The position numbers were made by a program, and so were the translations under genes. Positions 20,337 to 49,030 of a stretch of DNA of 64,000 bases are shown here, piece after piece (positions within the stretch are counted from its first letter, which is position 1; every line of letters starts with the position of its first letter). Under the pieces are notes generated by a model. It searched no databases. It worked only from the letters and a program-made list of their open reading frames with translations, and had not been told where the DNA came from. Origin of the DNA: Polynucleobacter sp. JS-Safj-400b-B2 (GTDB lineage Bacteria; Pseudomonadota; Gammaproteobacteria; Burkholderiales; Burkholderiaceae); contig NZ_JACVPJ010000007.1 of assembly GCF_018881975.1 (NCBI RefSeq), positions 1-64,000 of the forward strand. Reading direction: 5' to 3'.

Positions 20337-20348
20337 TATTTCTTTTGT

Positions 20349-21627: not shown

Positions 21628-21635
21628 AATTTTTC

Positions 21636-24306: not shown

Positions 24307-24317
24307 TTGTATTGCTC

Positions 24318-24620: not shown

Positions 24621-24638
24621 ATCTCACCTATAACAATC

Positions 24639-25544: not shown

Positions 25545-25549
25545 CCACT

Positions 25550-26242: not shown

Positions 26243-26244
26243 GA

Positions 26245-28190: not shown

Positions 28191-29766
28191 CGCTCCTGCC
28201 TTTCAGTGCGAAGAGGCCTTGAGGACGTCTTTGGATAAAAATAATAATGAACACTAAGATAGCAATCTTGGCCAATACGGCACCAATAAATGGCTCTAAT
28301 AATTTGCTGGTGATACCAAGTCCAAATGCACCATAAATAGTGCCTGCAAGCTGACCTACTCCACCGAGTACCACCACCATGAAGGAATCAACAATATAGC
28401 TTTGACCAAGATCGGGACCTACGTTACCAATCTGTGAGAGGGCTACACCACCAAGACCGGCAATGCCTGCGCCAAATGCAAAGGCATACATATCCACGCG
28501 CACTGTTTTGACACCCACGCATGCAGCCATAGTCCGGTTTTGAGTAACCGCCCTGACGAAAAGCCCTAGACGAGTTTTGTTTAATACTAGCCAAGTCACG
28601 ATTACTACCGCAATCGCAAAAGCAAAAATAATGATCCGGTTATAGGGCACAACCAAGTTAGGTAGTACCTGCATGGCACCAGACATCCACGTTGGATTAG
28701 CCACCTCGACATTTTGAGCGCCAAAAATAGCTCTGGTCATCTGAATCATCAGCAAACTGACGCCAAAGGTGGCTAATAAGGTTTCTAGCGGACGACCATA
28801 TAAAAATTTAATGACCGTTCTTTCGATCAAAATACCCACTAAGGCGGCGGCAATAAAAGCAACCGGCAAAGCGAATAACAAATACCAATCTAAATAGCCA
28901 GGAGCATATTGCCTGAAAAATCCCTGCACAACATAAGTTGCATAGGCACCAACCATCAGGAACTCGCCATGCGCCATATTGATGACGCCAATCAAGCCAT
29001 AAGTAATCGCCAAGCCCAAAGCGCAAAGTAACAAAATACTTCCATAACTAAACCCAGCGATCACATTACCCAGGATTTCGCCGCTAAACTCAGACTTCTT
29101 AATTTTGGCTAAAGCCTTTTCAGCCGCCTCTTGCACTGGGCCACCCTCTTTTGCCAAAGGCGCCAGCAATGCAGCAACTTGTGGATCACCACTATCGCCT
29201 AAGAGTTCAATTGCCTTTAGTTTTGATTCTTGATTGTCAGATTGCAAAGCAAGGAGCGCCCAGAGCTTCTGTACTTTTGGCTTGAGCGCAGGATCCTTTT
29301 CGGTAGCCAGTAAGTTTTCAACCAATGGGAAGGTGTCTGGCTCGGGATCCTTGATTAAAGAGTCGACTGCCTTAGCGCGAATCTGTGGATCTGCAGAAGC
29401 TAGCTGTAAACCTAGCAAGGCATTATCAACTTTACCGCGCAGTTGATTATTCAGAATAACGTCTTGCAGTTCATCCGGCTTGACTGAAACACTTAGTCCG
29501 GTTAAGGGATCTAAATATTGATCGCCCTTTTGAACTACAACACCTTGGGGCGACAAGAAAAGGCTTTCTGCACTGAGAGCCTGAAGAATTTCTAAGGCTT
29601 CGGGACTACCTTCTTTAGATAAATTTTGGACCACTTTAACTTTGGCATCAAAGTTATCACTAAACAGGGGCTTTAAATCTGCAACATTAATTTTTGCAAA
29701 AGTAATCCCACATGCCAATACACAAGCAGCAGAAAGGATTAGTTTTGAAAAGATTGGAAATTTCAT
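28183..29766 (-). CDS. urtB: Urea ABC transporter permease UrtB with N-terminal domain
   Basis: Permease subunit of 527 residues. A signal-like N-terminus is followed by a periplasmic domain of about 200 residues with repeated helices (LGLQLASADPQIRAKAVDSL), and then the LivH-type membrane domain from about residue 230 (ALGLAITYGLIGVINMAHGE). The long N-terminal extension is a known feature of UrtB and distinguishes it from amino-acid LivH permeases. It follows urtA after a 51-bp gap that holds a hairpin. Confidence 0.95.
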   Translation of the reverse strand: MKFPIFSKLILSAACVLACGITFAKINVADLKPLFSDNFDAKVKVVQNLSKEGSPEALEILQALSAESLFLSPQGVVVQKGDQYLDPLTGLSVSVKPDELQDVILNNQLRGKVDNALLGLQLASADPQIRAKAVDSLIKDPEPDTFPLVENLLATEKDPALKPKVQKLWALLALQSDNQESKLKAIELLGDSGDPQVAALLAPLAKEGGPVQEAAEKALAKIKKSEFSGEILGNVIAGFSYGSILLLCALGLAITYGLIGVINMAHGEFLMVGAYATYVVQGFFRQYAPGYLDWYLLFALPVAFIAAALVGILIERTVIKFLYGRPLETLLATFGVSLLMIQMTRAIFGAQNVEVANPTWMSGAMQVLPNLVVPYNRIIIFAFAIAVVIVTWLVLNKTRLGLFVRAVTQNRTMAACVGVKTVRVDMYAFAFGAGIAGLGGVALSQIGNVGPDLGQSYIVDSFMVVVLGGVGQLAGTIYGAFGLGITSKLLEPFIGAVLAKIAILVFIIIFIQRRPQGLFALKGRSVD

Positions 29767-29779
29767 GGTGATTGTGAAA

Positions 29780-29803
29780 ACCCTCCCCCAATTGAGGGAG
29801 GGT
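29780..29803 (-). terminator. Hairpin between urtA and urtB (attenuator or mRNA stabiliser)
   Basis: An 8-bp perfect GC-rich stem, ACCCTCCC (29780-29787) with GGGAGGGT (29796-29803), lies between urtA and urtB. On the coding strand it is followed by TTTTC. Leaky hairpins after the first gene of binding-protein-dependent transporters commonly keep the binding protein in excess, so partial termination or 3' protection of the urtA message is likely. Confidence 0.6.
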
Positions 29804-29817
29804 ATTTCTATTGAAAA

Positions 29818-31077
29818 TTACTGTACTGAATCAGGCTTGCCTGCATTACCGTCGATATACTGACTCCATGGTTTGGCTGGAATAGCTGTTGGAGTTTTGT
29901 AGATTACGTTGAATTGTCCGTCTGCCTTGATTTCACCAATCATGACCGGCTTAGATAAATGGTGATTAGCACCCATCACCTCAAGATAACCACTTGGAGT
30001 GTTAAGTTTTTGACCAATCATTGCCTTACGAACAGCATCAACATCGGTTGTGCCCGCTTTCTCAACAGCCGCTTTCCACATCAAGATACCGGTACGACTA
30101 GCCTCCATTGGGTCATCTGTCAAAGGCTTGCTAGCCCCTGGCAACTTTTTCTCTACAGAGTAAGCAGCCCACTGTTTTTTCCACTCGTCATTAACTGGGT
30201 TCTTAACTGACATGAAGTAATTCCATGCAGCCAATTGACCTACCAACGGCTTGGTATCAACGCCACGCAATTCCTCTTCACCAACAGAGAATGCCACTAC
30301 TGGAACATCTTTCGCTTTCAAGCCTGCATTACCCAATTCTTTATAGAAAGGAACGTTTGAGTCGCCGTTAATAGTAGAAACAACTGCTGTCTTGCCGCCT
30401 TGAGAGAACTTCTTGATATTGGCAACAATAGTTTGATAGTCTGAGTGACCAAATGGTGTGTATGTTTCTTGAATATCATCATCTTTAACACCTTTAGACT
30501 TCAAGAATGCACGCAAGATCTTATTGGTTGTGCGTGGATATACATAGTCAGTACCCAAAAGCACCCAACGCTTAGCCCCGCCACCTTCTTTACTCATCAA
30601 GTACTCAACCGCTGGAATAGCCTGTTGATTTGGCGCTGCGCCAGTGTAGAAAACGTTACGAGACATTTCTTCGCCTTCGTACTGCACGGGGTAAAATAGT
30701 AAGCCATTGAGCTCTTCAAAAACTGGCAGTACAGATTTACGTGATACGGAAGTCCAGCAGCCAAAAACAACCGAAACCTTATCTTTAGTTAAAAGCTGTC
30801 GAGCCTTTTCAGCAAATAATGGCCAATTGGAAGCTGGATCAACTACTACTGGCTCTAATTTACGACCCAATACGCCGCCGCTTTTATTAATCTGGTCAAT
30901 CACCATCAAATCCATATCTTTAAGTGATGTTTCGGAGATTGCCATTGTTCCGGATAGTGAATGCAAAATACCAACCTTAATTGGCTCCTTGCTTTGAGCC
31001 ATCGCCAAATGACTTAAACCTGTAAAACTCAAAGCCGCAGCCAAAGCTGACAACTTCAAAATTGATCTACGCTTCAT
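29818..31077 (-). CDS. urtA: Urea ABC transporter substrate-binding protein UrtA
   Basis: Periplasmic urea receptor of 419 residues. The signal peptide begins MKRRSILKLSALAAALS, with a twin-arginine-like RRS that might direct Tat export, and is cleaved after AMAQS or nearby. The mature protein is a type I periplasmic binding fold (VGILHSLSGTMAISETSLKD). It is the first gene of the urtABCDE-ureDAJBCEFG operon. Confidence 0.95.
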   Translation of the reverse strand: MKRRSILKLSALAAALSFTGLSHLAMAQSKEPIKVGILHSLSGTMAISETSLKDMDLMVIDQINKSGGVLGRKLEPVVVDPASNWPLFAEKARQLLTKDKVSVVFGCWTSVSRKSVLPVFEELNGLLFYPVQYEGEEMSRNVFYTGAAPNQQAIPAVEYLMSKEGGGAKRWVLLGTDYVYPRTTNKILRAFLKSKGVKDDDIQETYTPFGHSDYQTIVANIKKFSQGGKTAVVSTINGDSNVPFYKELGNAGLKAKDVPVVAFSVGEEELRGVDTKPLVGQLAAWNYFMSVKNPVNDEWKKQWAAYSVEKKLPGASKPLTDDPMEASRTGILMWKAAVEKAGTTDVDAVRKAMIGQKLNTPSGYLEVMGANHHLSKPVMIGEIKADGQFNVIYKTPTAIPAKPWSQYIDGNAGKPDSVQ

Positions 31078-34716: not shown

Positions 34717-35283
34717 ATGGCACAAGCAAAAACCTTATCTCAAGCAGAACTTGATCAAGTTCTTAATTACGTCAGTACCAAAAAATACGCTTTGCGTGAC
34801 AGAGCAATCATTCTTACCAGTTTCTTAGGCGGCCTTCGTGTCGCCGAAATAGCCTCACTCACCATGGGTGATGTAGTGAACCCCGATGGATCGATTAAGA
34901 ATGAGATCCGTTTATCAGCGGCACAAACTAAAGGCAAATACCCCCGAACCGTGTTCGTATCACAGCGTTTACAGGGGGAATTGGCCAACTACCTCACAAC
35001 AAGACATGCCAAAGGCGCTGATATTCCACTCTTTCATACCGATCATCGCTTACGTTTTAGCCCCAATGGCTTATGCGTGTGGTTTCATCAACTTTATAAG
35101 AATGTGGGCATTAGCGGCGGAAGTAGCCACTCGGGAAGAAAATTTTTCATAACAACTTTGGCTAATAAAGGCATCGGCGTTCGAATCTTAGCCAGTCTTG
35201 CTGGTCACAGATCGATTGCTGTAACGCAAAGATATATCGATGTAAATGATGAACAAAAGAGAAATGCTGTGGAGCTTATCTAA
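34717..35283 (+). CDS. Minimal tyrosine recombinase
   Basis: A 188-residue recombinase with only the catalytic domain, lacking the usual N-terminal arm- and core-binding domains. Catalytic residues visible are Arg in LGGLRVAEIASLT, Lys in QTKGKYPRTV, His and Arg in SSHSGRKFFITTL, His in LAGHRSIAVTQ and nucleophile Tyr in QRYIDVND. Short stand-alone enzymes of this type (FimB/XerH-like size) act in inversion or plasmid-multimer resolution. It is followed by a convergent nucleotidyltransferase pair. Its target site might lie among the palindromes just upstream. Confidence 0.75.
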   Translation: MAQAKTLSQAELDQVLNYVSTKKYALRDRAIILTSFLGGLRVAEIASLTMGDVVNPDGSIKNEIRLSAAQTKGKYPRTVFVSQRLQGELANYLTTRHAKGADIPLFHTDHRLRFSPNGLCVWFHQLYKNVGISGGSSHSGRKFFITTLANKGIGVRILASLAGHRSIAVTQRYIDVNDEQKRNAVELI

Positions 35284-35297
35284 TATAAAGTAAGGCA

Positions 35298-35831
35298 TTA
35301 CTCTAAATTGAGTGATGCCTTATCTTCGGCAACACGTTGCTTAACCGATTTTTCTTCGAAATCATCCAAGAAAGCGGTTTGACGTAAGCGATACTCAATG
35401 GTGGGCATTGAAAGTAAATCAGCTTTTAAGCCCTCTTTAATCCAAATGCGATCCCTAATTTCACCCCGAGCATATTTGGAGATTGCAGCGTCATTTAACT
35501 CAAGAAATAACGCCCGCACATTGCCAAAGTCGTGAACAACAAAGCGGTCCTCCCAACCATCAGGTAGTGTTGGTAAGTCTGGACTGGCTGCATCTACGTA
35601 ATAACCGAATTCATCTTCAAACGCACTACCTTGACCAATAATCGCAGCAATCTCACCTGCGCGAGCGGGATCATCTTTTGGATACATATCTACATCAATA
35701 GATCTCACCATCTCATCCGGAGGGGGAACTTCAAGACCCAGGGCGGTCAGGCTACCAATAATGACGTAGTCAGTGTGATTGGTAATCTTTTTAGCTTCAG
35801 TTAATACGTGATGAATATGATTCAGGTTCAA
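35298..35831 (-). CDS. DUF6036-like nucleotidyltransferase
   Basis: A 177-residue nucleotidyltransferase-fold protein. It has IIGSLTALGLEVPPP (GS motif) and SIDVDMYP (catalytic Asp pair), with a helical C-terminal part (RLRQTAFLDDFEEKSVKQRV). The translation start is TTG 35829-35831, overlapping the stop of the preceding gene (TTGA), so it is coupled. The arrangement resembles a type IV or MNT-type toxin-antitoxin, but which member would be toxic is unknown. Confidence 0.6.
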   Translation of the reverse strand: MNLNHIHHVLTEAKKITNHTDYVIIGSLTALGLEVPPPDEMVRSIDVDMYPKDDPARAGEIAAIIGQGSAFEDEFGYYVDAASPDLPTLPDGWEDRFVVHDFGNVRALFLELNDAAISKYARGEIRDRIWIKEGLKADLLSMPTIEYRLRQTAFLDDFEEKSVKQRVAEDKASLNLE

Positions 35832-36160
35832 CGAACTTCTTTCATCAGAAAGCTAAATGGGGAATTTTGTGCAAGCGCATGTGCCTGAGGAGCGTCACCA
35901 CAAACCTCTTGCTCCATTTCAGACGGGTCGGCATTTATCAATCTTCTCCAGGAGTCAATGTAAAAACGACTGCACAACTCCTTTTCCTCCCACATCCGAA
36001 TACGAACTTCAGCTTGATGTACTACATCATTGCGACGATCAGATCGAAGCAATATCAGAGCGTGACGATGCAACCTACCAAGTTTTTCGTACTTCTCGGC
36101 ATCAGCTTTGCGTGCTAATGCACGCATGGAGAGGGATGGATTAGGTTTAACGCTTTGCAT
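35828..36160 (-). CDS. Partner of DUF6036-like nucleotidyltransferase
   Basis: A 110-residue basic helical protein (ALARKADAEKYEKLGRLHRH, then RMWEEKELCSRFYIDSWRRL) with no recognised domain. Its stop overlaps the start of the nucleotidyltransferase gene, which makes the two a translationally coupled pair. By analogy with other nucleotidyltransferase operons it could be the antitoxin or DNA-binding partner; this is inference. Confidence 0.5.
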   Translation of the reverse strand: MQSVKPNPSLSMRALARKADAEKYEKLGRLHRHALILLRSDRRNDVVHQAEVRIRMWEEKELCSRFYIDSWRRLINADPSEMEQEVCGDAPQAHALAQNSPFSFLMKEVR

Positions 36161-37513: not shown

Positions 37514-38227
37514 ATGAGCTTCGCACTCAAATATGCACCTAAGACTCTCGATGAGGTTGTTCTAGGTAGCATCACTCTCAAAAACAAGCTAGCTGAATAC
37601 ATTAATGGGCGAGACTTAAAGCCATTAATACTTCATGGCGGGGTTGGTACTGGTAAAACCACGATTGCCAATCTATTACCCCACGCCATTGAAGGTAAAA
37701 AGGCTGAAGTTACCCGTCTTAAAGCAGTGGAATTTAATTCCATCAACGATGTCATGCAGACTTTTGAAGATCACACGATGTTTTATCAAGTGTTTACGAT
37801 CAATGATCAAAAGCGTAATTACATCATTTCCAATGAAATTAATTTCACACCTAAAGCAGCGATCGCGTTTAGAGATGTAATCGATGACATGATCGGACAT
37901 ACCCAGTTCATCTTTACAACGAACTACATTGATCAAGTGGACATTGCCTTGCGAGATCGTAGTAGCTGCCTGGTAGTGCCTCCAGTTTCGGCTAAGGATT
38001 GGCTACCCAGAGCGCAGTGGATCTTGCAGCAAGAAGGTATTGCCCTGCCAGATGATCAGCTACTCAAAGTCCTCTCAGCACAATTACAAATAAGCTCTAG
38101 CAATCGTAAATTATTGGAGCGCCTTGAAGACTTTGTTAGGTCGGTACGAAATCCTCCAAGCAATCCTGGCGGAGTAATTTTAGAAGTGCCAACGCCTGAG
38201 CCAATTAACCCGCTCATGGCAGCTTAA
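37514..38227 (+). CDS. Clamp-loader-like AAA+ ATPase
   Basis: A 237-residue AAA+ protein resembling the small subunit of clamp loaders (RFC, T4 gp44, DnaX type). It starts ALKYAPKTLDEVVLG, has Walker A LHGGVGTGKTTIA (about residues 40-52), a degenerate Walker B (NYIISNEINF, the Asp replaced), sensor 1 FTTNY, and RDRSS in the position of the SRC arginine finger. A short lid follows. It lacks the C-terminal collar of complete loaders. No sliding clamp or polymerase gene is near. It converges on the integrase gene with a 4-bp overlap. Confidence 0.65.
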   Translation: MSFALKYAPKTLDEVVLGSITLKNKLAEYINGRDLKPLILHGGVGTGKTTIANLLPHAIEGKKAEVTRLKAVEFNSINDVMQTFEDHTMFYQVFTINDQKRNYIISNEINFTPKAAIAFRDVIDDMIGHTQFIFTTNYIDQVDIALRDRSSCLVVPPVSAKDWLPRAQWILQQEGIALPDDQLLKVLSAQLQISSSNRKLLERLEDFVRSVRNPPSNPGGVILEVPTPEPINPLMAA

Positions 38228-39432
38228 GCTAATTTGGCGGCCGCCATCATAGGAGTAAGCTTTGAGTAATGTTTTTCAATCATCAGTGTTGAGGTGCCCA
38301 TTTGCCTGGCTAAGGTATGTATGTCAATACCTTCAGCTAGAGCAAAGGTGGCATAAGTATGGCGTAGGCTATACAGGGTTCTGTTTTTACCAGTAGCATC
38401 CTTTAATAAGTTAGATTCAACCATTAGCCGCTCAAAAACATCATCTAGACTATGCGGAGCATCTCCTTCGGGAAATGCAAATACTTTCTTATCTAATTTG
38501 GCCTCAATCACAGCCTCTAGGTTCTTATAAGGTAGCTTTTGCCAAGCAATTAACCGCTCTAAAGCCTCGATCACAAAATGTCTTGCGATTAGGTATCTAG
38601 GGCCCGTTTTGCCTGATACCCAAATTCTTAGGTAACGCTGCTCACCAATCCAATGCCACTGCAGAGCTTTCCAGCGAATCGGCATACTCTCCGTTCCCTG
38701 CCTAATACCCGTTCCCAGCAAGAACTCTACATAGACCCGGCACAGTCTACGCATATGGTTACTACGTTGATTGCGACCAAAACGCTCCCAGTCCCACATG
38801 TATTCCAGCAAGTAATTGACTTCTTGCTGATTAAAAGCAGGCCTAATTTCTGCCCTATCAGCGTTTACCTCCAATAAGGGAATGGTGCGATTTCGATTGA
38901 TTAGGCCCTGCTCTCTAGCCCTTTCAATTACCCGCTTATAAAGACCAGCATGGCGCCTTTGAGTATAGGTCTTGGGATTCTTGCCCATCTGGGATATGCG
39001 CCACGCCACATAGTCATCCACAAGCTCTTGGGTTATGTCATTAATCTGGTAATTACCAAAGAATGGAATCAAGTACTTGGTGTAGATGTGTATGTAATCA
39101 ACATGAGTGCGCTTATTGGGATTGGCTTGAACTACCCTGGCAGCAGCAGCTAGTTCTTGCGTGGCTAATTGCCGAAAAGTCTTGGTCTTAATGGCTAGAT
39201 CGCTGGCTAGCTTGACCTTGACTGTTTCATAGATAGCAATGGCTTGGGTTGTGGCTTCGGCCACCTGATCTAAGCCAGTACTTGAGGAATGCCAAGCACC
39301 CGTAGATAACTTAAAACGGCATTGCCATTGGTGACTATGGGGTCTTTTATAGAGGGTGATGGCACCATCAAGGAGTTTGATGGGCTCATCATCAGTGATA
39401 ACGGTAGAAAATAAGAGCGATAAATTATTCAT
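38224..39432 (-). CDS. Tyrosine integrase of element 2
   Basis: An intact site-specific integrase of 402 residues, with an N-terminal arm-binding part, a SAM-like core-binding domain (residues 95-165) and a C-terminal catalytic domain. Catalytic residues: Arg in GTGIRQGTE, Lys in VSGKTGPRYL, His/Arg in YSLRHTYATFAL and Tyr in IEKHYSKL. ATG 39430-39432 was chosen over an upstream codon because the element 1 homologue starts identically (MNNLSLLFS). It is the likely enzyme for integration at tRNA-Arg(UCU). It lies inside the element, far from both ends, between the plasmid-like block and the kai module. Confidence 0.9.
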   Translation of the reverse strand: MNNLSLLFSTVITDDEPIKLLDGAITLYKRPHSHQWQCRFKLSTGAWHSSSTGLDQVAEATTQAIAIYETVKVKLASDLAIKTKTFRQLATQELAAAARVVQANPNKRTHVDYIHIYTKYLIPFFGNYQINDITQELVDDYVAWRISQMGKNPKTYTQRRHAGLYKRVIERAREQGLINRNRTIPLLEVNADRAEIRPAFNQQEVNYLLEYMWDWERFGRNQRSNHMRRLCRVYVEFLLGTGIRQGTESMPIRWKALQWHWIGEQRYLRIWVSGKTGPRYLIARHFVIEALERLIAWQKLPYKNLEAVIEAKLDKKVFAFPEGDAPHSLDDVFERLMVESNLLKDATGKNRTLYSLRHTYATFALAEGIDIHTLARQMGTSTLMIEKHYSKLTPMMAAAKLA

Positions 39433-39650
39433 TAAAAGCGTCACTTAACAAGACACTTGTTAGCTTAATTTCAGATTTACGTTTGGGCGACCTGAATTAT
39501 TTACTGTCGGTTTGACCAGACACTACGGGGTCAGGGCTGGCGATGGACTGTTACCGATTAGAAGGCAGACCTTCAATCCACTTATTGATGGCAGGCTCAA
39601 AACGACCCAAAGAAGTCACCCGAGGCAAGTTTGGGTGATACAAGCCTTCC
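39433..39650. promoter_or_regulatory. Integrase upstream region with T and U palindromes, element 2
   Basis: Aligns with 9711-9900 of element 1. A T-type repeat lies at 39434-39460 (AAAAGCGTC...GACACTTGT) and a U-type repeat at 39506-39521 (GTCGGTTTGACCAGAC), with 67 bp between motif starts, close to the spacing in element 1. It likely contains the integrase promoter. Confidence 0.6.
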
Positions 39651-40802
39651 CTAAGAAAAAGAAAACCTTTTCTCTTTAAAAAGTTTTATACAGGCATCAA
39701 CAGCTTGCGCATCATAAAGGGTGCCTCGATGCTGCTTAATCTCATCAAGCGCTGCATCGATTCCCAAAACAAAGCGATAAGGGCGATGTGTCGACATCGC
39801 TTCAATCACATCAGCTACGGCAATAATTCGTGAGCCAAGTAAGATTTCATCACCCTTGAGGCCCTGAGGATAGCCACTACCGTCCATCCGCTCATGATGC
39901 TGATAGATCATTTGCGCAATAGGCCATGGAAATTTAATATTCTTAACAATGTCATATCCCGCCTCGGCATGGGTTTGAATCAACATATATTCGACATTAC
40001 TTAGCTTTCCAGGCTTAGTTAAAATTTCTACAGGAATTGAAATCTTGCCCACATCATGAATAGTTGAGGCTAATTCAATACCGTGGATCATATCTTCTGA
40101 TAATCCAAGCTCTCTAGCTATTGCCGGGGCTAATTGGCCGACTCGCTTCATGTGGCCGGCGGTATATTCATCACGTGATTCCACTGCATAGGCAATAGAC
40201 TTAATCGACTCCTCTAAACTTTGCTCAAGTTCTGTAGAGGCCTGCAATGCAGCTAATGCAGTCTTTTTGGCTGAAACCATTTCCTGCAGTTGCTTTTCTT
40301 CAGTAAGGTCAGTGGCAACTAAGCAGTAAATATCCGCTTCTCCACCTGAACTTAACTTGCTAACAGAAAGATAGATGGGTACTTGCTCTCCATCTTTGTT
40401 TAGCAAATTCAATTCCATACGTCGTTTTTCAGGTAAGCCTACCTTTAGAAAGGCTTCAAGAATCTTGTCATTCTCGGGGTCTACCCATTTATAAATGCCA
40501 CTGCCAACAATTGTGCTCATTGGTGACTTGACCATCTCCGCAAATCGTTGATTACAAAATAAAATAAGTCCATCTGCTGAAATAGTTAAGGCACCCTCAC
40601 TCATTTCCTCTAGCAACAATCGGTATGGGTGGTCTGCGTTAACTAGCGTGAAAATTCTTTCGCCAGATTTACCAGCAACCACTAAAGCGTCAACCGCTCC
40701 ATCGCGTATCGCATCTAGCGTTTGCTGAGCATCAAGCCACTTCCTGCGCAAGTCATCAATTTCTTGCAGGAGTTGTGAATGTGATTTTGAGTCTTCTTTC
40801 AT
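39651..40802 (-). CDS. PAS-HD-GYP cyclic-di-GMP phosphodiesterase
   Basis: A response protein of 383 residues. N-terminal coil (LQEIDDLRRKWLDAQQTLDA), PAS domain at about 70-175 (EGALTISADGLILFCNQRFA), a short coiled linker, and an HD-GYP domain at about 195-375. HD-GYP motifs are complete: TIHDVGKISIP and YQHHERMDGSGYP. The enzyme should hydrolyse c-di-GMP in the cytoplasm. It begins 3 bp after the second kaiB, in one operon with kaiC, so a KaiBC-type timer probably controls its activity or abundance. PAS binding partner is unknown. Confidence 0.88.
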   Translation of the reverse strand: MKEDSKSHSQLLQEIDDLRRKWLDAQQTLDAIRDGAVDALVVAGKSGERIFTLVNADHPYRLLLEEMSEGALTISADGLILFCNQRFAEMVKSPMSTIVGSGIYKWVDPENDKILEAFLKVGLPEKRRMELNLLNKDGEQVPIYLSVSKLSSGGEADIYCLVATDLTEEKQLQEMVSAKKTALAALQASTELEQSLEESIKSIAYAVESRDEYTAGHMKRVGQLAPAIARELGLSEDMIHGIELASTIHDVGKISIPVEILTKPGKLSNVEYMLIQTHAEAGYDIVKNIKFPWPIAQMIYQHHERMDGSGYPQGLKGDEILLGSRIIAVADVIEAMSTHRPYRFVLGIDAALDEIKQHRGTLYDAQAVDACIKLFKEKRFSFS

Positions 40803-40805
40803 TGT

Positions 40806-41153
40806 TTAATTAGACTTTAAATCTAGACCGACTAAAACTTTTTCTGTATCAGAGAGATCACCAATAATGCGACGCAACGGTGGGGGTAATTCCTTGATAA
40901 GGGTCGGTATTGCAATGATTTGATGGCCAGCAGCCAAGAGAGGTTGCTGATAAAGATCGATTACCTCTAAAGTGTATTGACCTGCCAGCTGCTCATCACA
41001 AATCTTTTTAATATTGGTAATGGCCGCAACCGAACGTGCCGTCGCACCTGCAACGTAGAGTCGAAGAATATATTTCTTTAACCCAGCCACTTTGACGGGC
41101 GAACTCCCTTCTTTTTTGGGATGCACCCGTAAATCAATCGATTTATCAGTCAT
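40806..41153 (-). CDS. kaiB: KaiB-family protein, second copy
   Basis: A 115-residue KaiB-type protein. After a Lys-rich start it contains [20 protein letters not shown] and [10 protein letters not shown], the thioredoxin-like beta-alpha-beta of KaiB, and ends with a [19 protein letters not shown] stretch. KaiB switches fold to bind KaiC and sequester output or KaiA. It overlaps the upstream kaiB by 4 bp. Sequence differs clearly from the first copy, so the two may act at different phases or form heteromers; this is inference. Confidence 0.9.
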
Positions 41154-41464
41154 TTGTTCAAGCCTCCCCCTAAACTGATCTGAGCTAGCACTTCCTCGAT
41201 ATTCGAGAGGTCTCCAACGACTTTTTTAACCGGCTTGGGGTGCTTGCGAACTAAGGTCGGGATTGCTAAGATTTCGTCCTCTTCGGAGAGCTTTGGATTT
41301 TCCAATAAATCAACTACCTCGAGCTCATACGGATCACCAATATGAGCATCGCATATTTTTTTGAGATTGCTCAGAGCCATTATCGACTTGGGCGTCTGTC
41401 CAGCCACATATAGTCGCAACTTTAAAATCGAAGTTTCGCCGCTTACTGCAGCAGACTTAGTCAC
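41150..41464 (-). CDS. kaiB: KaiB-family protein, first copy
   Basis: A 104-residue KaiB homologue close to the usual size. [38 protein letters not shown] and [19 protein letters not shown] are the family signatures. It overlaps kaiC by 4 bp (ATGA) and is the nearer KaiB to it, hence the probable primary partner. KaiB binding to the CI ring of KaiC is the known mechanism in cyanobacteria. Confidence 0.92.
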
Positions 41465-43248
41465 TTTGACCTCTTTTTGGCTACTAACGGAGCAATTTCA
41501 ACATCAGACTTGCGCATTTTTTCCATGGCAGTCTTATCTACACTTAATTGACCTGAGCGAAGTTTCTCCTGTGAGATTAATTTAATATTGGCAGCTTCTT
41601 GCGCCGCAAATTCAGCCCGCATTGCTGCAATCTTAGCGTCCAAAACGTTACGTTTATTTTCCAAATCGAAGTGGCGAAGCTCGACTTCTTCTTGCATCTG
41701 GATTTCTTGGGCCTTTTCCTTGGCTAGCATGCTAAGACGTGCGCCACCGGTTAAGACACCACCAATACCAGAATAGACGTCGATTAATTCCACGCCATTA
41801 TTGGTAATTAAGAATTCTCGAACTTGATTGGAATGCGCCATACCGCGCGACTTGAGAATGTACAAACCGCGATTACGCTCCCCATTGCTCTCGATGTCCC
41901 TTAATAGAATCCATGAATCAATTAATGAGGAAATTGCGACGTGAGATGACTCAGGCGAGGTTCCGCTGGCAGTTAAGCTGGAGAACATCGCTGTAACTCC
42001 TTCGGCCTTTAAAAAGTCCACTAACTTCATCAGGATTCTTTTCACTTGATTTGGATTTCGATTGTCTCCAAAGCTAGTAATAGGGTCCATGATGACCACT
42101 TGGGGCTTAAATTCATTCACCATTTTTTGAATCATGATCAGATGCATATCAAGCCCATACTGCGACGGCCTAGTAGACTCGAGCTTGAGCAGACCTTTCT
42201 TTATCCAAAAGTCTAAATCCATACCAATAGATTTCATGTTTCTTGCAATCTGACTTGGTGACTCTTCAAAAGCAAAATACAAGACTTTTTCACCCCTTTT
42301 ACAAGATGCATTAGCAAAATGTGACAAAAAGCTAGTTTTACCAGCACCCGCCGTACCCGAAACCAAAATAGAGCTGCCACGGTAGAAACCTTTATTACCC
42401 AACATTGAATCTAGTCGCTCAATACCACTAGAAACTCTGCCTGTTACCGCTTCGTAATTCAGCCTTGCAGAGGTAATTGGTATTAATGAAATTCCATCTT
42501 CATCAATTAAAAATGGATATTCATTAGTTCCATGAAGTGATCCGCGATACTTAACGATACGCAATCTTCGCGATGAAACCTGATCGTCAATGACGTTGTC
42601 TAATAAAATGACGCAATCAGATACGTACTCCTCTAATCCTTGACGAGAAATAGTATCTACCCCACTTTCGCCAGTGATAATGGCAGTGACCCCCTTGTCT
42701 TTTAGCCAGCGGAAAAGACGCCTTATTTCAGCGCGTAATATTGCAGGATTTGGGAGGCTTGAAAAAAGTGACTCAATGGTATCGAGCACAACCCGTTTTG
42801 CGCCAATTGCATCAATCGCAGCGCCTAGTCGAATAAAAAGAGCATCTAGGTTATATTCACCCGCCTCGGCTATTTCATCCTTGTCTATATACACATAGTC
42901 AATGGCAATTTTTTTACTTTTAATGAGCCCTTGTAGATCAAACCCAAGCGAAGCGACGTTGGCCATTAAGTCTTTGGTTGACTCTTCAAAAGCCATAAAA
43001 ACACCAGGCTCATTAAATTGAGCAGCCCCCCTAACCAAAAACTCCATTGAAAGCAATGTCTTGCCACAACCAGTATTACCGCACACTAGCGTAGGGCGTC
43101 CTTTTGGAATACCCCCATTAGTAATGGTGTCCAAACCCTCAATCCCCGTTAAGACTTTGGGGAGTTGAGTTCGGGTTACCTGCACGAACTTCGGCTTTAA
43201 AGTAGTTTTCGGCTTTGTAATTACTTTGCTGGGCTTTGCTTTAGTCAT
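41461..43248 (-). CDS. kaiC: KaiC-family double RecA ATPase/kinase
   Basis: A 595-residue KaiC with two RecA-like domains. CI: Walker A GNTGCGKT (57-64) and catalytic E88-E89 (FEEST). CII: Walker A GTAGAGKT (298-305) and E328-E329. The phosphorylation pair of cyanobacterial KaiC (S431/T432) aligns with S440-S441 (HVAISSLIDSW), so autophosphorylation is plausible. The C-terminus differs from the cyanobacterial A-loop tail: residues 505-595 are a charged coiled coil (EKAQEIQMQEEVELRHFDLE), possibly a new interaction surface. No kaiA is present. First gene of the kaiC-kaiB-kaiB-HD-GYP operon. Confidence 0.93.
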   Translation of the reverse strand: MTKAKPSKVITKPKTTLKPKFVQVTRTQLPKVLTGIEGLDTITNGGIPKGRPTLVCGNTGCGKTLLSMEFLVRGAAQFNEPGVFMAFEESTKDLMANVASLGFDLQGLIKSKKIAIDYVYIDKDEIAEAGEYNLDALFIRLGAAIDAIGAKRVVLDTIESLFSSLPNPAILRAEIRRLFRWLKDKGVTAIITGESGVDTISRQGLEEYVSDCVILLDNVIDDQVSSRRLRIVKYRGSLHGTNEYPFLIDEDGISLIPITSARLNYEAVTGRVSSGIERLDSMLGNKGFYRGSSILVSGTAGAGKTSFLSHFANASCKRGEKVLYFAFEESPSQIARNMKSIGMDLDFWIKKGLLKLESTRPSQYGLDMHLIMIQKMVNEFKPQVVIMDPITSFGDNRNPNQVKRILMKLVDFLKAEGVTAMFSSLTASGTSPESSHVAISSLIDSWILLRDIESNGERNRGLYILKSRGMAHSNQVREFLITNNGVELIDVYSGIGGVLTGGARLSMLAKEKAQEIQMQEEVELRHFDLENKRNVLDAKIAAMRAEFAAQEAANIKLISQEKLRSGQLSVDKTAMEKMRKSDVEIAPLVAKKRSK

Positions 43249-43478: not shown

Positions 43479-44711
43479 TCAATCAGTTGCCCCCCCCCCC
43501 AAATCTAGACTTTCCTTGCCGTCAAACAGCTTAACGGCTGCAGAGACCACCATGGCGTCTAATTGCTTGCCAGATTCAGCTTTAATTTGAGCGATTGCAG
43601 CAGGCAGCCCAAGGGCGGCCCTGTAAGGGCGATGGGTAGACATGGCTTCAAGCGTATCGGCAACTGCCAAAATCTTCGCGCCCGGGAGAATCTGATCCCC
43701 TCTTAAACCCAGGGGGTAGCCAGAGCCATCGATACGCTCGTGGTGTTGACGCACCATATCTGCGACCGGCCAGGGAAACTCAATGTCTTTTAAAAGTTCA
43801 TATCCCTGCTCAGGATGCAGTTGGACCAACTTTTCTTCAAACCCTGATAAGGCTGATGGTTTAGTCAGAATTTCAGCGGGTACAGCAATCTTGCCAATGT
43901 CATGAATGAGCCCAGCCATTTTGAGGCCAACAATACTCTCTTCATCTAAACCCATCTCGGCGCCAATAGCTTTAGCCAAATCACCTACATGCTTTTCATG
44001 ACCAGCGGTATAGGGGTCCCGCAATTCAACCAGAGCCCTAGCTATATCAATTGTTTCCATCAAAGACAATTGTAATTTTTCATGATTGATTGCCTCGAGC
44101 TTGGAAATCACCAACTCAGCAACCATCTTGGCTTTTACTTCCATCGCCACCACTAATTCTGCCGCTCGCTTTGCTTTCTCCTCATTGGCGATAATAAGCT
44201 CATCAGCTCTCTTGGTTTTTTCTTCATTTGCGACAACTAGCTCAGCTACTCTCTTGGCTTTTTCTTCATTTTGAAAAGCAAGCTCTTCGTTAGCAATAAT
44301 GAGTTCTGCGGCTCGTTTTGCTTTTTCCGCATTAGCAATCTTGAGCTCATCAACCCGTTTGGCTTTTTCTTGGTTTTGATATGCCAACTCTTCATTGGCA
44401 ATAATTAGCTCTGCCGCCCGCTTAGCCTTTTCTTCATTGGCAATAACGAGCTCAGCAACTCTTCTTGCCCTCTGTTCATTTTGATGGGCAAGCTCTTCAT
44501 TCGCTATCACTAAATCTGCGGCTCTTTTGGCTTTCTCTTCATTAGCGATAACCAGCTCTGCTACTCGCTTGGCTTTTTCAATATTAGCAAGAACTAGTTC
44601 AGCTACACGCTTAGCTTTCTCTTCATTTTGAAAGAGTAGTTCTTTATTAGCAATAATTAAGTCAGCAGCTCGCTTAGCTATCTCAGCATCAGTCGTTTCT
44701 ATTTTTTTCAT
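43479..44711 (-). CDS. HD-GYP protein with repetitive coiled-coil N-terminus
   Basis: A 410-residue protein. Residues 1-200 are tandem variants of a coil unit (KRAAELVIANEELAFQNEEK) found in sensory proteins. An HD-GYP domain follows at about 215-400 with LIHDIGKIAVP and RQHHERIDGSGYP intact, so c-di-GMP hydrolysis is expected. The repeats make 44100-44690 a tandem-repeat region in DNA. Its 3' end carries an 11-bp C/G homopolymer at 43490-43500. It lies 230 bp upstream of kaiC on the same strand, so it may be a separate transcript or leader gene of the operon. Confidence 0.85.
   Translation of the reverse strand: MKKIETTDAEIAKRAADLIIANKELLFQNEEKAKRVAELVLANIEKAKRVAELVIANEEKAKRAADLVIANEELAHQNEQRARRVAELVIANEEKAKRAAELIIANEELAYQNQEKAKRVDELKIANAEKAKRAAELIIANEELAFQNEEKAKRVAELVVANEEKTKRADELIIANEEKAKRAAELVVAMEVKAKMVAELVISKLEAINHEKLQLSLMETIDIARALVELRDPYTAGHEKHVGDLAKAIGAEMGLDEESIVGLKMAGLIHDIGKIAVPAEILTKPSALSGFEEKLVQLHPEQGYELLKDIEFPWPVADMVRQHHERIDGSGYPLGLRGDQILPGAKILAVADTLEAMSTHRPYRAALGLPAAIAQIKAESGKQLDAMVVSAAVKLFDGKESLDLGGGATD
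43490..43500. repeat. 11-bp homopolymer tract in the HD-GYP gene end
   Basis: Eleven consecutive C on the plus strand code for Gly-Gly-Gly just before the end of the HD-GYP protein (LDLGGGATD). Slippage would only change the last few residues: loss of one base gives GGGQLIDF and a stop, gain of one gives GGGGN and a stop. A contingency role is therefore weak. The tract is also error-prone in sequencing. Confidence 0.7.
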
Positions 44712-44838
44712 TTAAAAACCGCTTTTTCAGGAACCCTTTATTTGTTCAGTGTATACCCATTAGCTCTTATATCTATAGACTTTTTAACGCTTTATAGGTG
44801 TAATGGACTTACTCTACTTTTGAGATACGAGGTACATT

Positions 44839-45684
44839 TTGTATATAGCTATTAGCCTTTACTGCCTATCGCTGCTATGTCAGGTTCTTGCCTCACTAAT
44901 TAGCCTTTCGTTATTTCGGCATTCAGCAACCATATATCGCTGGGCATGGCTATTGTTAGCTATCGGCCTTAGCTTAATGGTAGGCAGAAGACTTGTTCCG
45001 ATAATTCATGTCTATGAGTCTGGTAACTTCGACTTATTAGACGCAATCCTATCGCTACTAATTTCAGGATTCTTATTGCTCGGCGTCCTTGGTCTTAAAA
45101 AATTACTTTTCAAGGCTGACAATAATCAACTGACGCTCGAAACTCTTGCTCAGCACGATCCCCTCACCAATAGTTTAAGTCGCACCGAAATACTTTATAG
45201 AATCTCGGAAGAAATTAATCGCTCACGCAGAAATAAACATTCTTTTGCTCTACTTGAAATGGACATTGACCATTTTAAAAATGTAAACGATCAATTTGGT
45301 CATCATGTTGGTGATACGATTTTAGCCAATCTAGTAAGGCACTCTCAAGAAGCAGTTCGCTCTATTGATATAGTTGGACGAATTGGGGGGGAAGAATTTT
45401 TGATACTGTTGCCAGAAACAGCGGCCGAGGGAGCTGCACAAATTGCTGAGCGTTTGCGGGAACATATTGCCAATACAGCAAATGTTACAAGTGCTTCAAA
45501 ACCAATAAACATCACCATTAGTATTGGAGTTGCGATTTTTAACCCCAAAAAAAATCCCACAATAGAGCGGGGCATACTCTTAAATGAGTTAGTAAATCAG
45601 GCTGACCTAGCAATGTATCAAGCAAAAAATGAAGGGCGAAATCGCGTTGCCTTTTGGAGTCTCTCTACCCCCTCCTTTAAATAG
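44839..45684 (+). CDS. Membrane diguanylate cyclase (GGDEF)
   Basis: A 281-residue protein. The first 95 residues hold about three TM segments (LLCQVLASLISLSLFRHSAT, then WLLLAIGLSLMVG). A GGDEF domain follows at about 110-275 with signature GRIGGEEFLILLPE, preceded by RSID at I-site spacing, so it should synthesise c-di-GMP with product inhibition. The start is a TTG at 44839, preceded by GAGG six bases upstream. It is divergent from the HD-GYP/kai genes and supplies the opposing activity. It sits at the right side of element 2. Confidence 0.87.
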   Translation: MYIAISLYCLSLLCQVLASLISLSLFRHSATIYRWAWLLLAIGLSLMVGRRLVPIIHVYESGNFDLLDAILSLLISGFLLLGVLGLKKLLFKADNNQLTLETLAQHDPLTNSLSRTEILYRISEEINRSRRNKHSFALLEMDIDHFKNVNDQFGHHVGDTILANLVRHSQEAVRSIDIVGRIGGEEFLILLPETAAEGAAQIAERLREHIANTANVTSASKPINITISIGVAIFNPKKNPTIERGILLNELVNQADLAMYQAKNEGRNRVAFWSLSTPSFK

Positions 45685-45692
45685 CTAGGATC

Positions 45693-46043
45693 TTAAAACG
45701 GAAAGATAAGCTCTTCCATTACATAGCGATAAAAGTAGTTCGGCCCAAGAAATCCTGCCATCTTGCCGTAACCAGCCCGAGTCTTAAAGTAGTAATCGTT
45801 TGATGCCACAGGACTGGTTGCCGCTAACTCATAGAGCTGTGTGGTTGTGCTTGGATCTTGATTGACTGTTTGTCGTCCAACGCCTGCTGTACCACTAAGC
45901 ATCCAGCCATTGATACGCTTACGTGCTCCAAAGGCAATCATAGTCTCGCTATAAGTGGATGGGTTGAAGTAGTTATTGGGAACATTAGTATTGGTATCTC
46001 TATATTGGCGATACCTAACCGAATAACAACCGGCAGCTAACAA
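45693..46043 (-). pseudogene. C-terminal fragment of an outer-membrane barrel protein
   Basis: A 116-residue fragment with alternating beta strands (SETMIAFGARKRINGWMLSG, then YYFKTRAGYGKMAGFLGP) ending in LIFPF, as in outer-membrane barrels. It lacks a signal peptide and N-terminus; the frame opens abruptly next to the T palindrome at 46045. The last 35 residues match the remnant at 9901-10015 of element 1. It probably derives from a polysaccharide- or TPR-associated porin once carried by both elements. Confidence 0.65.
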
Positions 46044-46254: not shown

Positions 46255-46331
<77 letters not shown>

Positions 46332-46366
46332 AATGTGCTGGGTATAACTAGAACAATAAGGGAAAG

Positions 46367-46443
46367 TGGTCGGAGTACAAGGATTCGAACCTTGGACCCC
46401 CTGCTCCCAAAGCAGGTGCGCTACCAGGCTGCGCTACACTCCG
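46367..46443 (-). tRNA. tRNA-Pro (UGG)
   Basis: A complete 77-nt tRNA gene with encoded CCA (46367-46369). The acceptor stem is CGGAGTG paired with TACTCCG, the anticodon loop TTTGGGA gives anticodon TGG, and the T-loop is TTCGAAT. It lies 35 bp upstream of tRNA-Arg on the same strand, so both are probably processed from one transcript. Confidence 0.96.
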
Positions 46444-46503
46444 ACGGAACCGATATTCTACACCGAGAGGGCTGTTACAGGCAAATCCTGTAACATTCGT
46501 GCC

Positions 46504-46872
46504 ATGAGTGCCTATTTTTCAAGCAAATTTACGAAGCAAATTCAGACCGCTTTTACAGCGGCATTGCTCGTATTTTGCTTGCTCGGAACCCACTGGATAG
46601 GTCTTTCCCACAGCATTTCGCACGCGGGCCTCCAAGGCCAATCCACCGAAATAAGCAAATCATCTGTTGTTGATAAAACCTTTAGTCATACCTCTGATAG
46701 TTGTCACCTGTTTGACGCACTTTCGCTTGCCGGATTTATTCCATGCGACCAATCTTCTGCTGTGGCAACTCACCAAGGCGCAATAGATCAACCCAATACA
46801 AATAATTCATTTTTAAGAAATTCAATAGCTAGCGTTTATCAATCGCGCGCTCCCCCCACTTTCATCCTTTAA
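46504..46872 (+). CDS. Small His/Cys-containing exported protein
   Basis: A protein of about 122 residues with an N-terminal hydrophobic segment (FTAALLVFCLLGTHWIGLSH). It then has scattered His and Cys residues: HSISHAG, HTSDSCHLFDAL and FIPCDQS. It could be a metal-binding periplasmic or membrane protein. The start ATG at 46504 was chosen because the longer open frame runs through the tRNA-Pro gene. It is 61 bp upstream of a TonB-dependent receptor on the same strand. A similar pairing is known for zinc or copper uptake receptors, but the metal is not determined. Confidence 0.6.
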   Translation: MSAYFSSKFTKQIQTAFTAALLVFCLLGTHWIGLSHSISHAGLQGQSTEISKSSVVDKTFSHTSDSCHLFDALSLAGFIPCDQSSAVATHQGAIDQPNTNNSFLRNSIASVYQSRAPPTFIL

Positions 46873-46933
46873 AACATTAGCGCTGCATTGCGCATTCCCG
46901 TTTTAATTAATCACCATCAATTGGTGAATTTGG

Positions 46934-49030
46934 ATGAATATGAATTACCGCTCTAAACCATTTTCTTGCTCACCATTATTGGTAGCCATTACATTTTTTC
47001 TGAACAACCCTGCTTGGTCACAAAATCAAGCGGAAGCTTTACCTCAGCTTGATGTCACTGGTGTGCACGAAGGTGGTCAAGGGTTTTTATCGCCAAATAA
47101 AGTATTGGCTGGGGATGAGTTGCAAAACAAACTATCCGGAACGCTTGGAGCAACTTTAGCAAATGAGCTCGGCGTCTCGGCAACAGGCTATGGTGCAGGC
47201 TCATCAAGGCCTGTTATTCGTGGTCTTGAAGGTGCGCGCGTTCAGATTCTGCAAAATGGATTATCCGCCGGCGATGTTTCAAGTATTTCCGCTGATCATG
47301 CAATAGCAAGCCCAATGCAAAATACCCATCAGATTGAAATTCTGCGTGGTGCCTCTGCTCTTCAATATGGATCAGGCTCCAGCGGTGGCTTAATAAACGT
47401 TGTAAATGATCGAATTGTTACGACGATGCCTGACACTCTATCTGGTGCAGTCAATACCAGCTACGAAACAGTGAACCAAGGTAAAACAGCCAATATAGAG
47501 CTCGATGCACCAGCAGGTCCCCTTGCTTTGCATTTTGATTCAGCCATAAGCAATTCGAATAACTATCGTATTCCAGGATTTGCTGAACAAGGCGGACCAA
47601 ATGCAAATTGGGCTATCAACCCAGGTGAGCCGGTAAATATTCCCTATAGTGGAAAACTACCATTCTCTTTTAGCAATCAGAATAGTTTAGGTTTAGGAGC
47701 AAGTTATGTTCGCTCGGATGGATATACAGGCCTCTCTTTAGAGCGCATGAATCATAACTATGGAATACCCACCGCAGAGGGCGGCTTTATTCAACAGTCA
47801 CAAAATCGTTACGACATTGCCCATCAAACTAACGACCCTTTTGATGGCTTTAGCTCGGTGAAGATTAGCGCTGCTAATACAAATTATCAACATACTGAAT
47901 TTACCAATAATGGTGTTGCATCAACCAAATGGAATAACACTGCTACTGAAGCTCGATTGGAATTAGCTCATAAAGAGTTGCTGGGATCAAAAGGTATTCT
48001 GGGCCTACAAGTCATAGGCTCAACTCTCAATGCAACAGATTTATCGACAAATAATTACGCAATAGCTCCCCAGACAAAATCAAATTCAACTGCCCTCTTC
48101 TTGGTTGAAGAAGGTCGATATGGACCATTAAAAACGAGTCTCGGAGCTCGATATAACTACGTAAACCAAAATCCAAATTCTGGAACCCAGTTTCCTAGCG
48201 CTAGCAGTCAAGAATTTATTCCAACGTCTTATGGCCCTCCTGCACTTCAAAATCGCCAATTTAATTTAATGTCTTATTCAGCAGGAGGCCTGCTAGATGT
48301 TGCCAAAGGTTATGGGATAGGTCTTGCCTATACAGTTTCTCAAAGATCACCCAGTGCTCAAGAGCTCTATTCATATGGGCCGCACGATTCAACGGCAACA
48401 TTTGATATTGGAAACTCAAATTTAGGCGTTGAAACTTCACACAATCTTGAGCTTAGTTTTCAAAAGACTCTGGGCTTGATCCGCAGTAAAGCCAGTATTT
48501 ATAAAAACCAGTTTAATAATTTCATATATGGTTACTACACCGGTGCCTATAGTCAAGCTAATGAAAATTTTTCAGTTGTGCAGGCTTCTCAAGCAAATGC
48601 ATCAATTCAAGGGGCGGAAGCAGAACTTACCTATAACTGGAATGAAACTGGCGTTGGTGGACGAATATTTGGTGATGTCTCTCAAGGCACCTTTACTTCC
48701 GGCGGAAATCTTCCTTTGCAGCCAGCGCCACGTCTAGGGACCGAATTAGGATACCAACGCAATGGGTGGTTAGCAGGCGCAACTTACATCTATAGCTATC
48801 AACAAAATAAATTAGCTAGCTGGGAAATCGGGCCAACGCCAAGCTATAACCTTGTCAATGCTAACTTGTCTTATACAGAGCGGATTGGAAAGGTAAATTG
48901 GGCTGGGTACTTAATTCTCAAGAACTTACTGAATGAAGAGATTCGTTATGCAACCTCACCTATGGCTGTGAGGCTGTATGCGCCGCAACCGGGAAGAAGC
49001 GTGATGGTCGGCGTACGGGCTGCGTTTTGA
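46934..49030 (+). CDS. TonB-dependent outer-membrane receptor (ZnuD-like)
   Basis: A 698-residue receptor with signal peptide (LLVAITFFLNNPAWS) and a plug domain at about 40-160 (SRPVIRGLEGARVQILQNG, then HQIEILRGASALQYGSGSSG). A 22-strand barrel follows, ending in MVGVRAAF with terminal Phe. It imports a metal or chelate across the outer membrane using TonB energy. Overall plug sequence resembles the zinc receptor group. It follows the small His/Cys protein gene, which supports a metal role. The TCACC...GGTGA inverted repeat at about 46908-46924 upstream could be a regulator site. Confidence 0.85.
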   Translation: MNMNYRSKPFSCSPLLVAITFFLNNPAWSQNQAEALPQLDVTGVHEGGQGFLSPNKVLAGDELQNKLSGTLGATLANELGVSATGYGAGSSRPVIRGLEGARVQILQNGLSAGDVSSISADHAIASPMQNTHQIEILRGASALQYGSGSSGGLINVVNDRIVTTMPDTLSGAVNTSYETVNQGKTANIELDAPAGPLALHFDSAISNSNNYRIPGFAEQGGPNANWAINPGEPVNIPYSGKLPFSFSNQNSLGLGASYVRSDGYTGLSLERMNHNYGIPTAEGGFIQQSQNRYDIAHQTNDPFDGFSSVKISAANTNYQHTEFTNNGVASTKWNNTATEARLELAHKELLGSKGILGLQVIGSTLNATDLSTNNYAIAPQTKSNSTALFLVEEGRYGPLKTSLGARYNYVNQNPNSGTQFPSASSQEFIPTSYGPPALQNRQFNLMSYSAGGLLDVAKGYGIGLAYTVSQRSPSAQELYSYGPHDSTATFDIGNSNLGVETSHNLELSFQKTLGLIRSKASIYKNQFNNFIYGYYTGAYSQANENFSVVQASQANASIQGAEAELTYNWNETGVGGRIFGDVSQGTFTSGGNLPLQPAPRLGTELGYQRNGWLAGATYIYSYQQNKLASWEIGPTPSYNLVNANLSYTERIGKVNWAGYLILKNLLNEEIRYATSPMAVRLYAPQPGRSVMVGVRAAF

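Follow-up and report, generated by a model that had tools for sequence, protein, structure and literature searches.

How does a KaiBC timer outside the cyanobacteria deliver its signal? SasA of the cyanobacteria reads KaiC via a KaiB-like domain. Outside cyanobacteria, SasA homologues lack this domain and central output factors are missing, according to the available text of PMC5520375, and signal delivery by KaiBC is an open question there. An operon in a 64,000-nucleotide stretch of Polynucleobacter sp. JS-Safj-400b-B2 (contig NZ_JACVPJ010000007.1, positions 1 to 64,000; hereafter the window) raises this question in a concrete form. In it, a double-domain kaiC and two kaiB genes are followed by a gene for a PAS-HD-GYP protein, hereafter the effector, whose predicted activity is the breakdown of cyclic dimeric GMP (c-di-GMP). 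The positions of the open reading frames (ORFs) and their Pfam matches confirmed the four minus-strand genes of the preliminary description (Table 1), with 4-bp overlaps at the kaiC/kaiB and kaiB/kaiB junctions and a 3-bp gap before the effector gene. We give an even chance to the reading that the helix-hairpin-PAS module at the N-terminus of the effector is a dedicated Kai reader, the output port of window-type KaiBC timers outside cyanobacteria, which has repeatedly been joined to different enzymes (kinase, GGDEF-EAL, HD-GYP). In the window, it would wire the timer directly to c-di-GMP hydrolysis without a phosphorelay, and the whole would move as cargo of a tRNA-Arg island.

We collected the best 80 of 178 confirmed relatives of the window KaiC as a set of related loci. 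The effector set (n = 81) comprises the window's effector, 78 effectors from the 80 related loci and two from further genomes. An additional sample of 36 stretches, the KaiB-only sample, was chosen by a KaiB match in class and order genomes and not by similarity to the window KaiC. KaiB was found in 33 of the 369 genomes sampled from the class (28 above the cut-off) and in 21 of the 399 genomes sampled from the order (18 above the cut-off). The stretches were drawn from 17 of 27 (class) and 15 of 17 (order) above-cut-off genomes besides the window's, the remainder having weak or broken matches. We aligned the N-terminal region of 27 effectors (alignment A2), which consists of an N-terminal helix, a hairpin region that opens with the consensus AIRxGEVDALVV, and a PAS domain. 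The A2 profile was searched through both whole-genome samples, and matches were listed to an E value of 1e-15 in the class sample and 1e-10 in the order sample. The window's genome is present in both samples and was counted once.

The full module was consistently found beside kaiB. A module-like gene follows kaiC on the Kai strand in 78 of the 80 related loci, and the two exceptions (L052 and L063) are truncated by a contig edge. The class genomes yielded nine module matches at E ≤ 1e-15 in eight genomes, all nine directly downstream of kaiB. The order genomes yielded 19 matches at E ≤ 1e-10, and the strongest 10 (E ≤ 1e-15, 10 genomes) are likewise all directly downstream of kaiB. The nine weaker matches (2.7e-14 to 8.3e-11) begin at profile position 53 or later, which corresponds to a PAS domain without the helix-hairpin, and their genomes are not KaiB-positive. 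Taken together, 18 of 18 distinct strong matches adjoin kaiB; this count includes G224, where the kaiB is interrupted by a stop. Among Kai-locus ORFs scoring at least 50 bits, a count biased to Kai neighbourhoods, 99 of 101 are next to kaiB, and two are found immediately upstream of kaiC. The kinase of the Rhodobacter (Cereibacter) sphaeroides operon also carries the module (76.9 bits). In R. sphaeroides KD131 (L206, NC_011962.1), the strain whose KaiBC structures have been published, kaiC is plasmid-borne and the operon kinase has the module.

The part of the protein that follows the module varies. Pfam detected HATPase_c in 36 of the 81 effectors, HD_5 in 14, GGDEF in 10 and EAL in eight. 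Complete proteins of 232-242 amino acids (aa) that comprise only the module are encoded in 13 operons, all labelled Bacteroidota, and the next gene holds a kinase-type motif in four of them. The remaining effectors are truncated at the end of a contig or stop early. In L059 (10118-10456), a decayed module is fused to an HD-GYP fragment, and the locus has one KaiB, of the first type; the scripted count treated it as HD-GYP and Pfam did not. Because the module precedes a histidine kinase or a GGDEF-EAL protein in relatives, we infer that it is the conserved Kai partner and that the output is exchangeable.

The arrangement in the window is itself conserved: of the 81 effectors, 13 others also have HD-GYP after this module, which passes the conservation check named in the preliminary description. 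The full order kaiC-kaiB-kaiB-module-HD-GYP is shared by the window, L006, L007 and, with extra domains between, three loci of Oscillochloris (L027-L029); module-HD-GYP with one kaiB occurs in L003, L004, L005, L008, L009, L017, L019 and L083. To judge from the trees, HD-GYP was apparently joined to the module more than once. On the KaiC tree the HD-GYP label changes four times, and two of these changes are forced by well-supported branches. On a tree of HD-GYP domains (23 rows, with a background of only seven HD-GYPs unlinked to Kai), the module-linked domains fall into three groups with three forced changes: the window clade with Chlorobi, L017 and G140; L019; and Oscillochloris. The HD-GYPs of Oscillochloris score about 121 bits versus at least 336 bits for L003-L009, and this low similarity makes separate gains the simpler reading.

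For the window's effector, motifs and model both point to a predicted c-di-GMP phosphodiesterase of the HD-GYP type, in agreement with the preliminary description. The motifs HDVGK (249), HAEAGY (278), HHER (302), GYP (310) and AVAD (328) are intact and the metal-site residues are kept. The structure model places a helix at residues 8-33, strands at 39-44 and 47-52, a PAS-like part to about 165 and a long helix at 167-210 before the HD-GYP domain. A Foldseek search with the HD-GYP part matched 4mcw (1.5e-13) and 9rbz (5.1e-13 and weaker), and in this fold search the domain is 36-37% identical to c-di-GMP-bound DvhD. DvhD (PDB 9rbz, 9rc0) has a PAS domain followed by HD-GYP like the effector, and the entry titles name no Kai link.

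We assign the window KaiC, on its sequence, to the KaiA-free, coiled-coil-tailed R. sphaeroides type. Among solved structures it matches R. sphaeroides KaiC (8dba) best, with 621 bits over residues 31-581; the best KaiC from outside the R. sphaeroides set is 8zn5 (372 bits), and Synechococcus-type chains score about 330 bits. Both ATPase sites are kept, with P-loop GKT at 62-64 and 303-305 and FEES, which holds the catalytic Glu-Glu pairs, from 87 and 327. Serines 440 and 441 align with the Ser-Ser pair of R. sphaeroides KaiC. The C-terminal extension, which in this type measures about 50 residues, is present and aligns with the R. sphaeroides tail (residues 496-595); by sequence we judged it to be of the coiled-coil type. 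The preliminary description of a single operon of a KaiA-free type agrees with this assignment and with the search for KaiA: PF07688, a model that need not detect KaiA3-type proteins, has no match in the whole genome (2.63 Mb, 37 contigs), and among 14 control genomes it matched in Synechococcus elongatus only. The only two KaiB matches in the genome are the operon pair. The system thus departs from a KaiABC circadian oscillator both in having no KaiA match and in having no KaiB-like domain in the operon's effector. It shares with the cyanobacterial SasA/CikA-RpaA pathway a presumed Kai-driven output, whereas the effector lacks the KaiB-like domain of SasA. A role in defence was rejected, as PADLOC gave low-scoring matches only and the best of them (KaiC to mad8, 46 bits) was taken as a shared fold.

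R. sphaeroides is also the closest system overall. Its kaiC-kaiB-HWE histidine kinase operon shares with the window the KaiC tail, the Ser-Ser pair, the lack of KaiA, the gene order and the effector module. It differs in having one first-position-type KaiB, a histidine kinase output and a plasmid location, whereas the window has two KaiBs, an HD-GYP output and a tRNA island. Experiments have established that R. sphaeroides KaiBC is a KaiA-free hourglass driven by ATP/ADP, in which KaiC forms a dodecamer via its coiled-coil tail (PMC10076222, available text). By analogy, the window KaiBC would show the same class of behaviour.

We consider it fairly probable that the operon encodes a KaiA-free KaiBC hourglass or energy-state switch with c-di-GMP breakdown as its output. 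Its anatomy, conservation and mobility are read from the DNA, and the coupling, its direction and its timing are what we infer. At high ATP/ADP, KaiC would autophosphorylate, as measured for R. sphaeroides KaiC, and with falling ATP/ADP the KaiB-bound KaiC would dephosphorylate. The module may then read the KaiB-KaiC complex in one of its states, or KaiB after its release, and the long helix after the PAS domain would pass the change to the HD-GYP domain, resulting in c-di-GMP cleavage. The neighbouring cyclase would oppose this cleavage, and at the end of the chain c-di-GMP would act on motility or attachment. Adjacency, conservation and output exchange suggest that KaiBC is linked to the module, and the exchange of output domains points to an output rather than an input. 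If this scheme is right, the HD-GYP version couples a timer that works post-translationally to the breakdown of a second messenger in a single step, and does so on a mobile element. In the two genome samples the module was found at full strength only beside kaiB; it precedes changing output enzymes and is present in the biochemically tractable R. sphaeroides operon. This opens the question of signal delivery to direct tests on small proteins, for this KaiC type at least.

We assessed how often c-di-GMP enzymes neighbour kai genes at all. In 18 of the 36 KaiB-only stretches, a kai gene has a c-di-GMP enzyme as its direct neighbour (15 GGDEF or GGDEF-EAL, three HD-GYP); the others have a kinase (13), a module protein with an unrecognised output (one) or none of these (four). 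This tally is a manual reading. The automated neighbour call missed L192, L194, L195 and L188, where ORFs overlap, and scored L184 via the gene beside a second kaiC; on this uncorrected call, c-di-GMP enzymes make up 17 of 53 adjacent genes versus 9 of 202 others (Fisher test, p = 1.9e-7). In the window's genome, PilZ has a single match, barely above the cut-off.

Several points weigh against an hourglass or switch that signals through the module to c-di-GMP breakdown. The module is not a universal KaiB partner: among genomes above the KaiB cut-off, the class sample has it at E ≤ 1e-15 in eight of 28 and the order sample in 10 of 18, and 16 of the 36 KaiB-only stretches contain it as an ORF of at least 50 bits. 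Only six of the 18 stretches with a c-di-GMP enzyme have a module ORF, so Kai proteins and c-di-GMP enzymes are neighbours also without it. The A2 profile was made from Kai-adjacent members, and diverged free copies would therefore fall below the threshold. The module-only operons imply that the module need not work by driving its own C-terminus, and the forced label changes on the trees could reflect one gain and later losses. The structure model is of moderate quality, with a mean predicted local distance difference test score (pLDDT) of 76.5 and a predicted template modelling score (pTM) of 0.58; pLDDT is below 60 over about residues 250-280. The effector matches PAS and HD families in Pfam and no KaiB family, so that contact with the Kai proteins is not predicted by SasA homology. 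In a study of L. pneumophila, KaiB and KaiC were reportedly found not to interact. For S. elongatus, adding c-di-GMP in vitro did not affect KaiC consistently, and the link is indirect in the authors' view (PMC13001216, available text).

The same data can be read in the opposite direction. The last gene would then be an input, its PAS domain sensing redox, oxygen or a ligand and signalling to KaiBC, with the catalytic domain secondary. The operon kinase of R. sphaeroides has been proposed to act in redox input (PMC5520375 and PMC10931921, available texts), and the 13 operons in which the module stands without an output domain would fit such a role. We nevertheless regard an input as unlikely: the part behind the module is swapped among three classes of output enzymes, as is usual for outputs, and this type of KaiC is able to read ATP/ADP itself (PMC10076222, available text).

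We think it doubtful, too, that the operon reflects shared regulation only, that is, co-transcribed stress-response genes without direct protein contact. Operon adjacency by itself is no proof of contact, the module is absent from many KaiB loci, and a Legionella KaiC2 homologue has been linked to the stress response (PMC5520375, available text). However, where the full module is found it remains by kaiB across phyla and across changes of output, and co-regulation needs no conserved module.

The two KaiB proteins, described as divergent, are 48% identical across 83 residues. Their presence in one operon was described as unusual, which is wrong for this operon type. A KaiB pair is present in 60 of the 80 related loci, and two of the 20 single-KaiB loci (L052 and L063) stop at a contig edge; yet a tandem pair was found in just 7 of the 36 stretches of the KaiB-only sample. 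On a KaiB tree (n = 145), which has few columns and many unresolved forks, the label "first of two" changes three times and "second of two" five times, versus a mean of 47 for shuffled labels in both cases. The groups span Pseudomonadota, Bacteroidota, Chloroflexota, Nitrospirota and Candidatus Methanoperedens. Given so few label changes, the KaiB pair is ancient in operons of this type, and by their place on the tree we assign the window's KaiBs to two old paralogue groups. The idea that two KaiBs make the operon special was dropped on these counts. We also rejected the idea that the module pairs only with the second-position KaiB. It came from L059, with its decayed effector and first-type KaiB only, and from the single-KaiB HD-GYP loci; R. 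sphaeroides, L163, L170, L172, L176, L206, L208 and L209 have one first-type KaiB and the module. Two other loci, L162 (G487) and L161 (G274), hold at least two consecutive Kai clusters, in which KaiB-KaiC repeats are separated by genes of about 272 aa that are unmatched by the seed domains.

We compared the operon with published arrangements. Clusters of kaiC-kaiB followed by a histidine kinase or a GGDEF/EAL protein were stated in 2011, as the first kaiC context of that survey (PMC3164672, available text); they have the same arrangement as the window and include a c-di-GMP enzyme among the neighbours. In its available form, the main text of that paper does not use the term HD-GYP and names no module common to the kinase and GGDEF/EAL proteins. 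Operons of kaiC-kaiB-PAS/histidine kinase have been described as well (PMC4794148 and PMC3899966, available texts), and that of Rhodopseudomonas palustris has the window's gene order and the Ser-Ser pair in a TSS motif, with a histidine kinase and not HD-GYP (PMC4794148). The claim that no such circuit had been described therefore stands for HD-GYP, which we did not find as a kaiB-linked output in the open-access literature searched, an absence that is weak evidence; a kinase or a GGDEF/EAL protein beside kaiB has been in print since 2011. Overall, the initial interpretation is partly supported. The larger result is a kaiB-linked module with exchangeable outputs, of which the HD-GYP kind was not found in print.

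The mobile location suggested at first could be refined to a tRNA-integrase genomic island, with a tyrosine integrase, attachment (att) repeats and an empty site all present. The congeners G037 and G034 (L105 and L106) provide the empty site: their sequence runs unbroken from the counterpart of 6441-7600 into that of 46255-48999, sharing the att core. From the att repeats and the empty site, it follows that the kai operon lies in the last unit (~19.2-46.25 kb) of a tandem array. The repeat at 18459-18500 closes a 179-bp stretch that is 84% like the tRNA side. Of the full-length integrase copies in eight other congeners, five lie 2-13 kb from the same tRNA-Arg (G007, G011, G012, G016 and G038). 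Apart from the window's genome, 149 relatives were covered, and three of them, all from other genera, have a KaiB match. A locus labelled Sheuella (Alcaligenaceae; L006) has 87% DNA identity over 3.3 kb of the operon. A phage origin of kaiC was rejected, as there was no match at E ≤ 1e-20 among 50,697 phage records; plasmid records matching kaiC at E ≤ 1e-60 number 16, every one below 60% identity.

The circuit could also serve the island itself, which would use KaiBC and c-di-GMP for its own benefit, to set when it excises or transfers or when the host changes between motile and sessile life. The 38.7-kb tRNA-Arg array holds three of the five HD-GYP and two of the six GGDEF matches of the genome, and a separate assembly (L003) packs tRNA-Arg, a kai operon, a GGDEF gene and the same integrase type (81% nucleotide identity) into a 6.2-kb contig. 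In another system, island-borne cyclases change the biofilm and motility of recipients (PMC10672970, available text). Against this, a homologue of the island integrase was seen only in L003 among the 80 loci, many of them on short contigs, and the R. sphaeroides operon sits on a plasmid. We consider such a function improbable; it would not exclude the hourglass or switch with c-di-GMP breakdown as its output.

Table 1. Features of the kai operon and its island in the window.
Feature	Position	Strand	Details and evidence
kaiC, double-domain, Ser-Ser pair 440/441, coiled-coil-type C-terminal tail	41461-43248	-	595 aa; Pfam KaiC 5.1e-114; alignment with 8dba
kaiB, first-position type	41150-41464	-	104 aa, GTG start; Pfam KaiB 6e-26; KaiB tree
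kaiB, second-position type	40806-41153	-	115 aa; Pfam KaiB 1.2e-27; KaiB tree
Effector gene: Kai-linked N-terminal module, signalling helix, HD-GYP domain	39651-40802	-	383 aa; Pfam PAS and HD_5 1.8e-37; structure model
Kai-linked module of the effector (helix, beta hairpin, PAS)	40275-40802	-	Alignment A2, whole-genome searches, model
HD-GYP domain of the effector with HDVGK, HHER, GYP and AVAD motifs	39654-40232	-	Pfam, motif alignment, Foldseek
Second HD-GYP gene, immediately upstream of kaiC, with ~200 residues of repeats resembling a coiled coil; associated, outside the conserved operon	43479-44711	-	
Diguanylate cyclase (GGDEF), divergent, upstream of kaiC	44839-45684	+	Homologue likewise divergent beside kaiC in L007
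Tyrosine integrase of the island	38224-39444	-	Of 100 other congeners searched, 8 have full-length copies (83-95% identity)
Probable element gene for an AAA ATPase, converging on the integrase gene with a 4-bp overlap	37514-38227	+	L092
tRNA-Arg (tct), integration target; 3' 41-45 bp are the att core	46255-46331	-	
Far boundary of the 27-kb kai island, a direct repeat of the tRNA-Arg 3' end	19198-19244		45-bp match (19200-19244), 97.8%
att-core direct repeat, neighbouring unit	18459-18500		42 bp identical to the 7557 and 19198 copies
Direct repeat of the tRNA-Arg 3' end, neighbouring unit	8391-8437		41-bp match (8397-8437), 100%
Outermost repeat	7557-7600		42-bp match (7559-7600), 97.6%; contiguous with 46255 in G037 and G034

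The HD-GYP and cyclase genes upstream of kaiC were considered as a part of the Kai system and rejected, as a homologous stretch (window 44283-46013) is located elsewhere in a KaiB-negative congener (G012); the cyclase nonetheless recurs beside kaiC in L007. The near-repeat coiled coil of the upstream HD-GYP protein is visible at the DNA level. Promoters and terminators predicted around the operon were not above shuffled sequences (7 versus a mean of 9.7, and 3 versus 4.7).

The 27-kb kai unit also encodes (19716-31077) urease alpha subunit, UreE and UreG, and the urea ABC transporter components UrtA, two permeases, UrtD and UrtE. Just inside the neighbouring unit, an ORF with GGDEF and HD-GYP (16571-18142) lies beside an att copy, which places c-di-GMP genes at the same end of two units. 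That unit also holds an integrase fragment (9213-9734) that matches residues 2-166 of the island's integrase with 84% identity. Another, short Phage_integrase protein is encoded within the island at 34717-35283. A DUF6036 nucleotidyltransferase gene (35298-36160) is overlapped by a small upstream ORF, and the two may be a pair of the toxin-antitoxin type.

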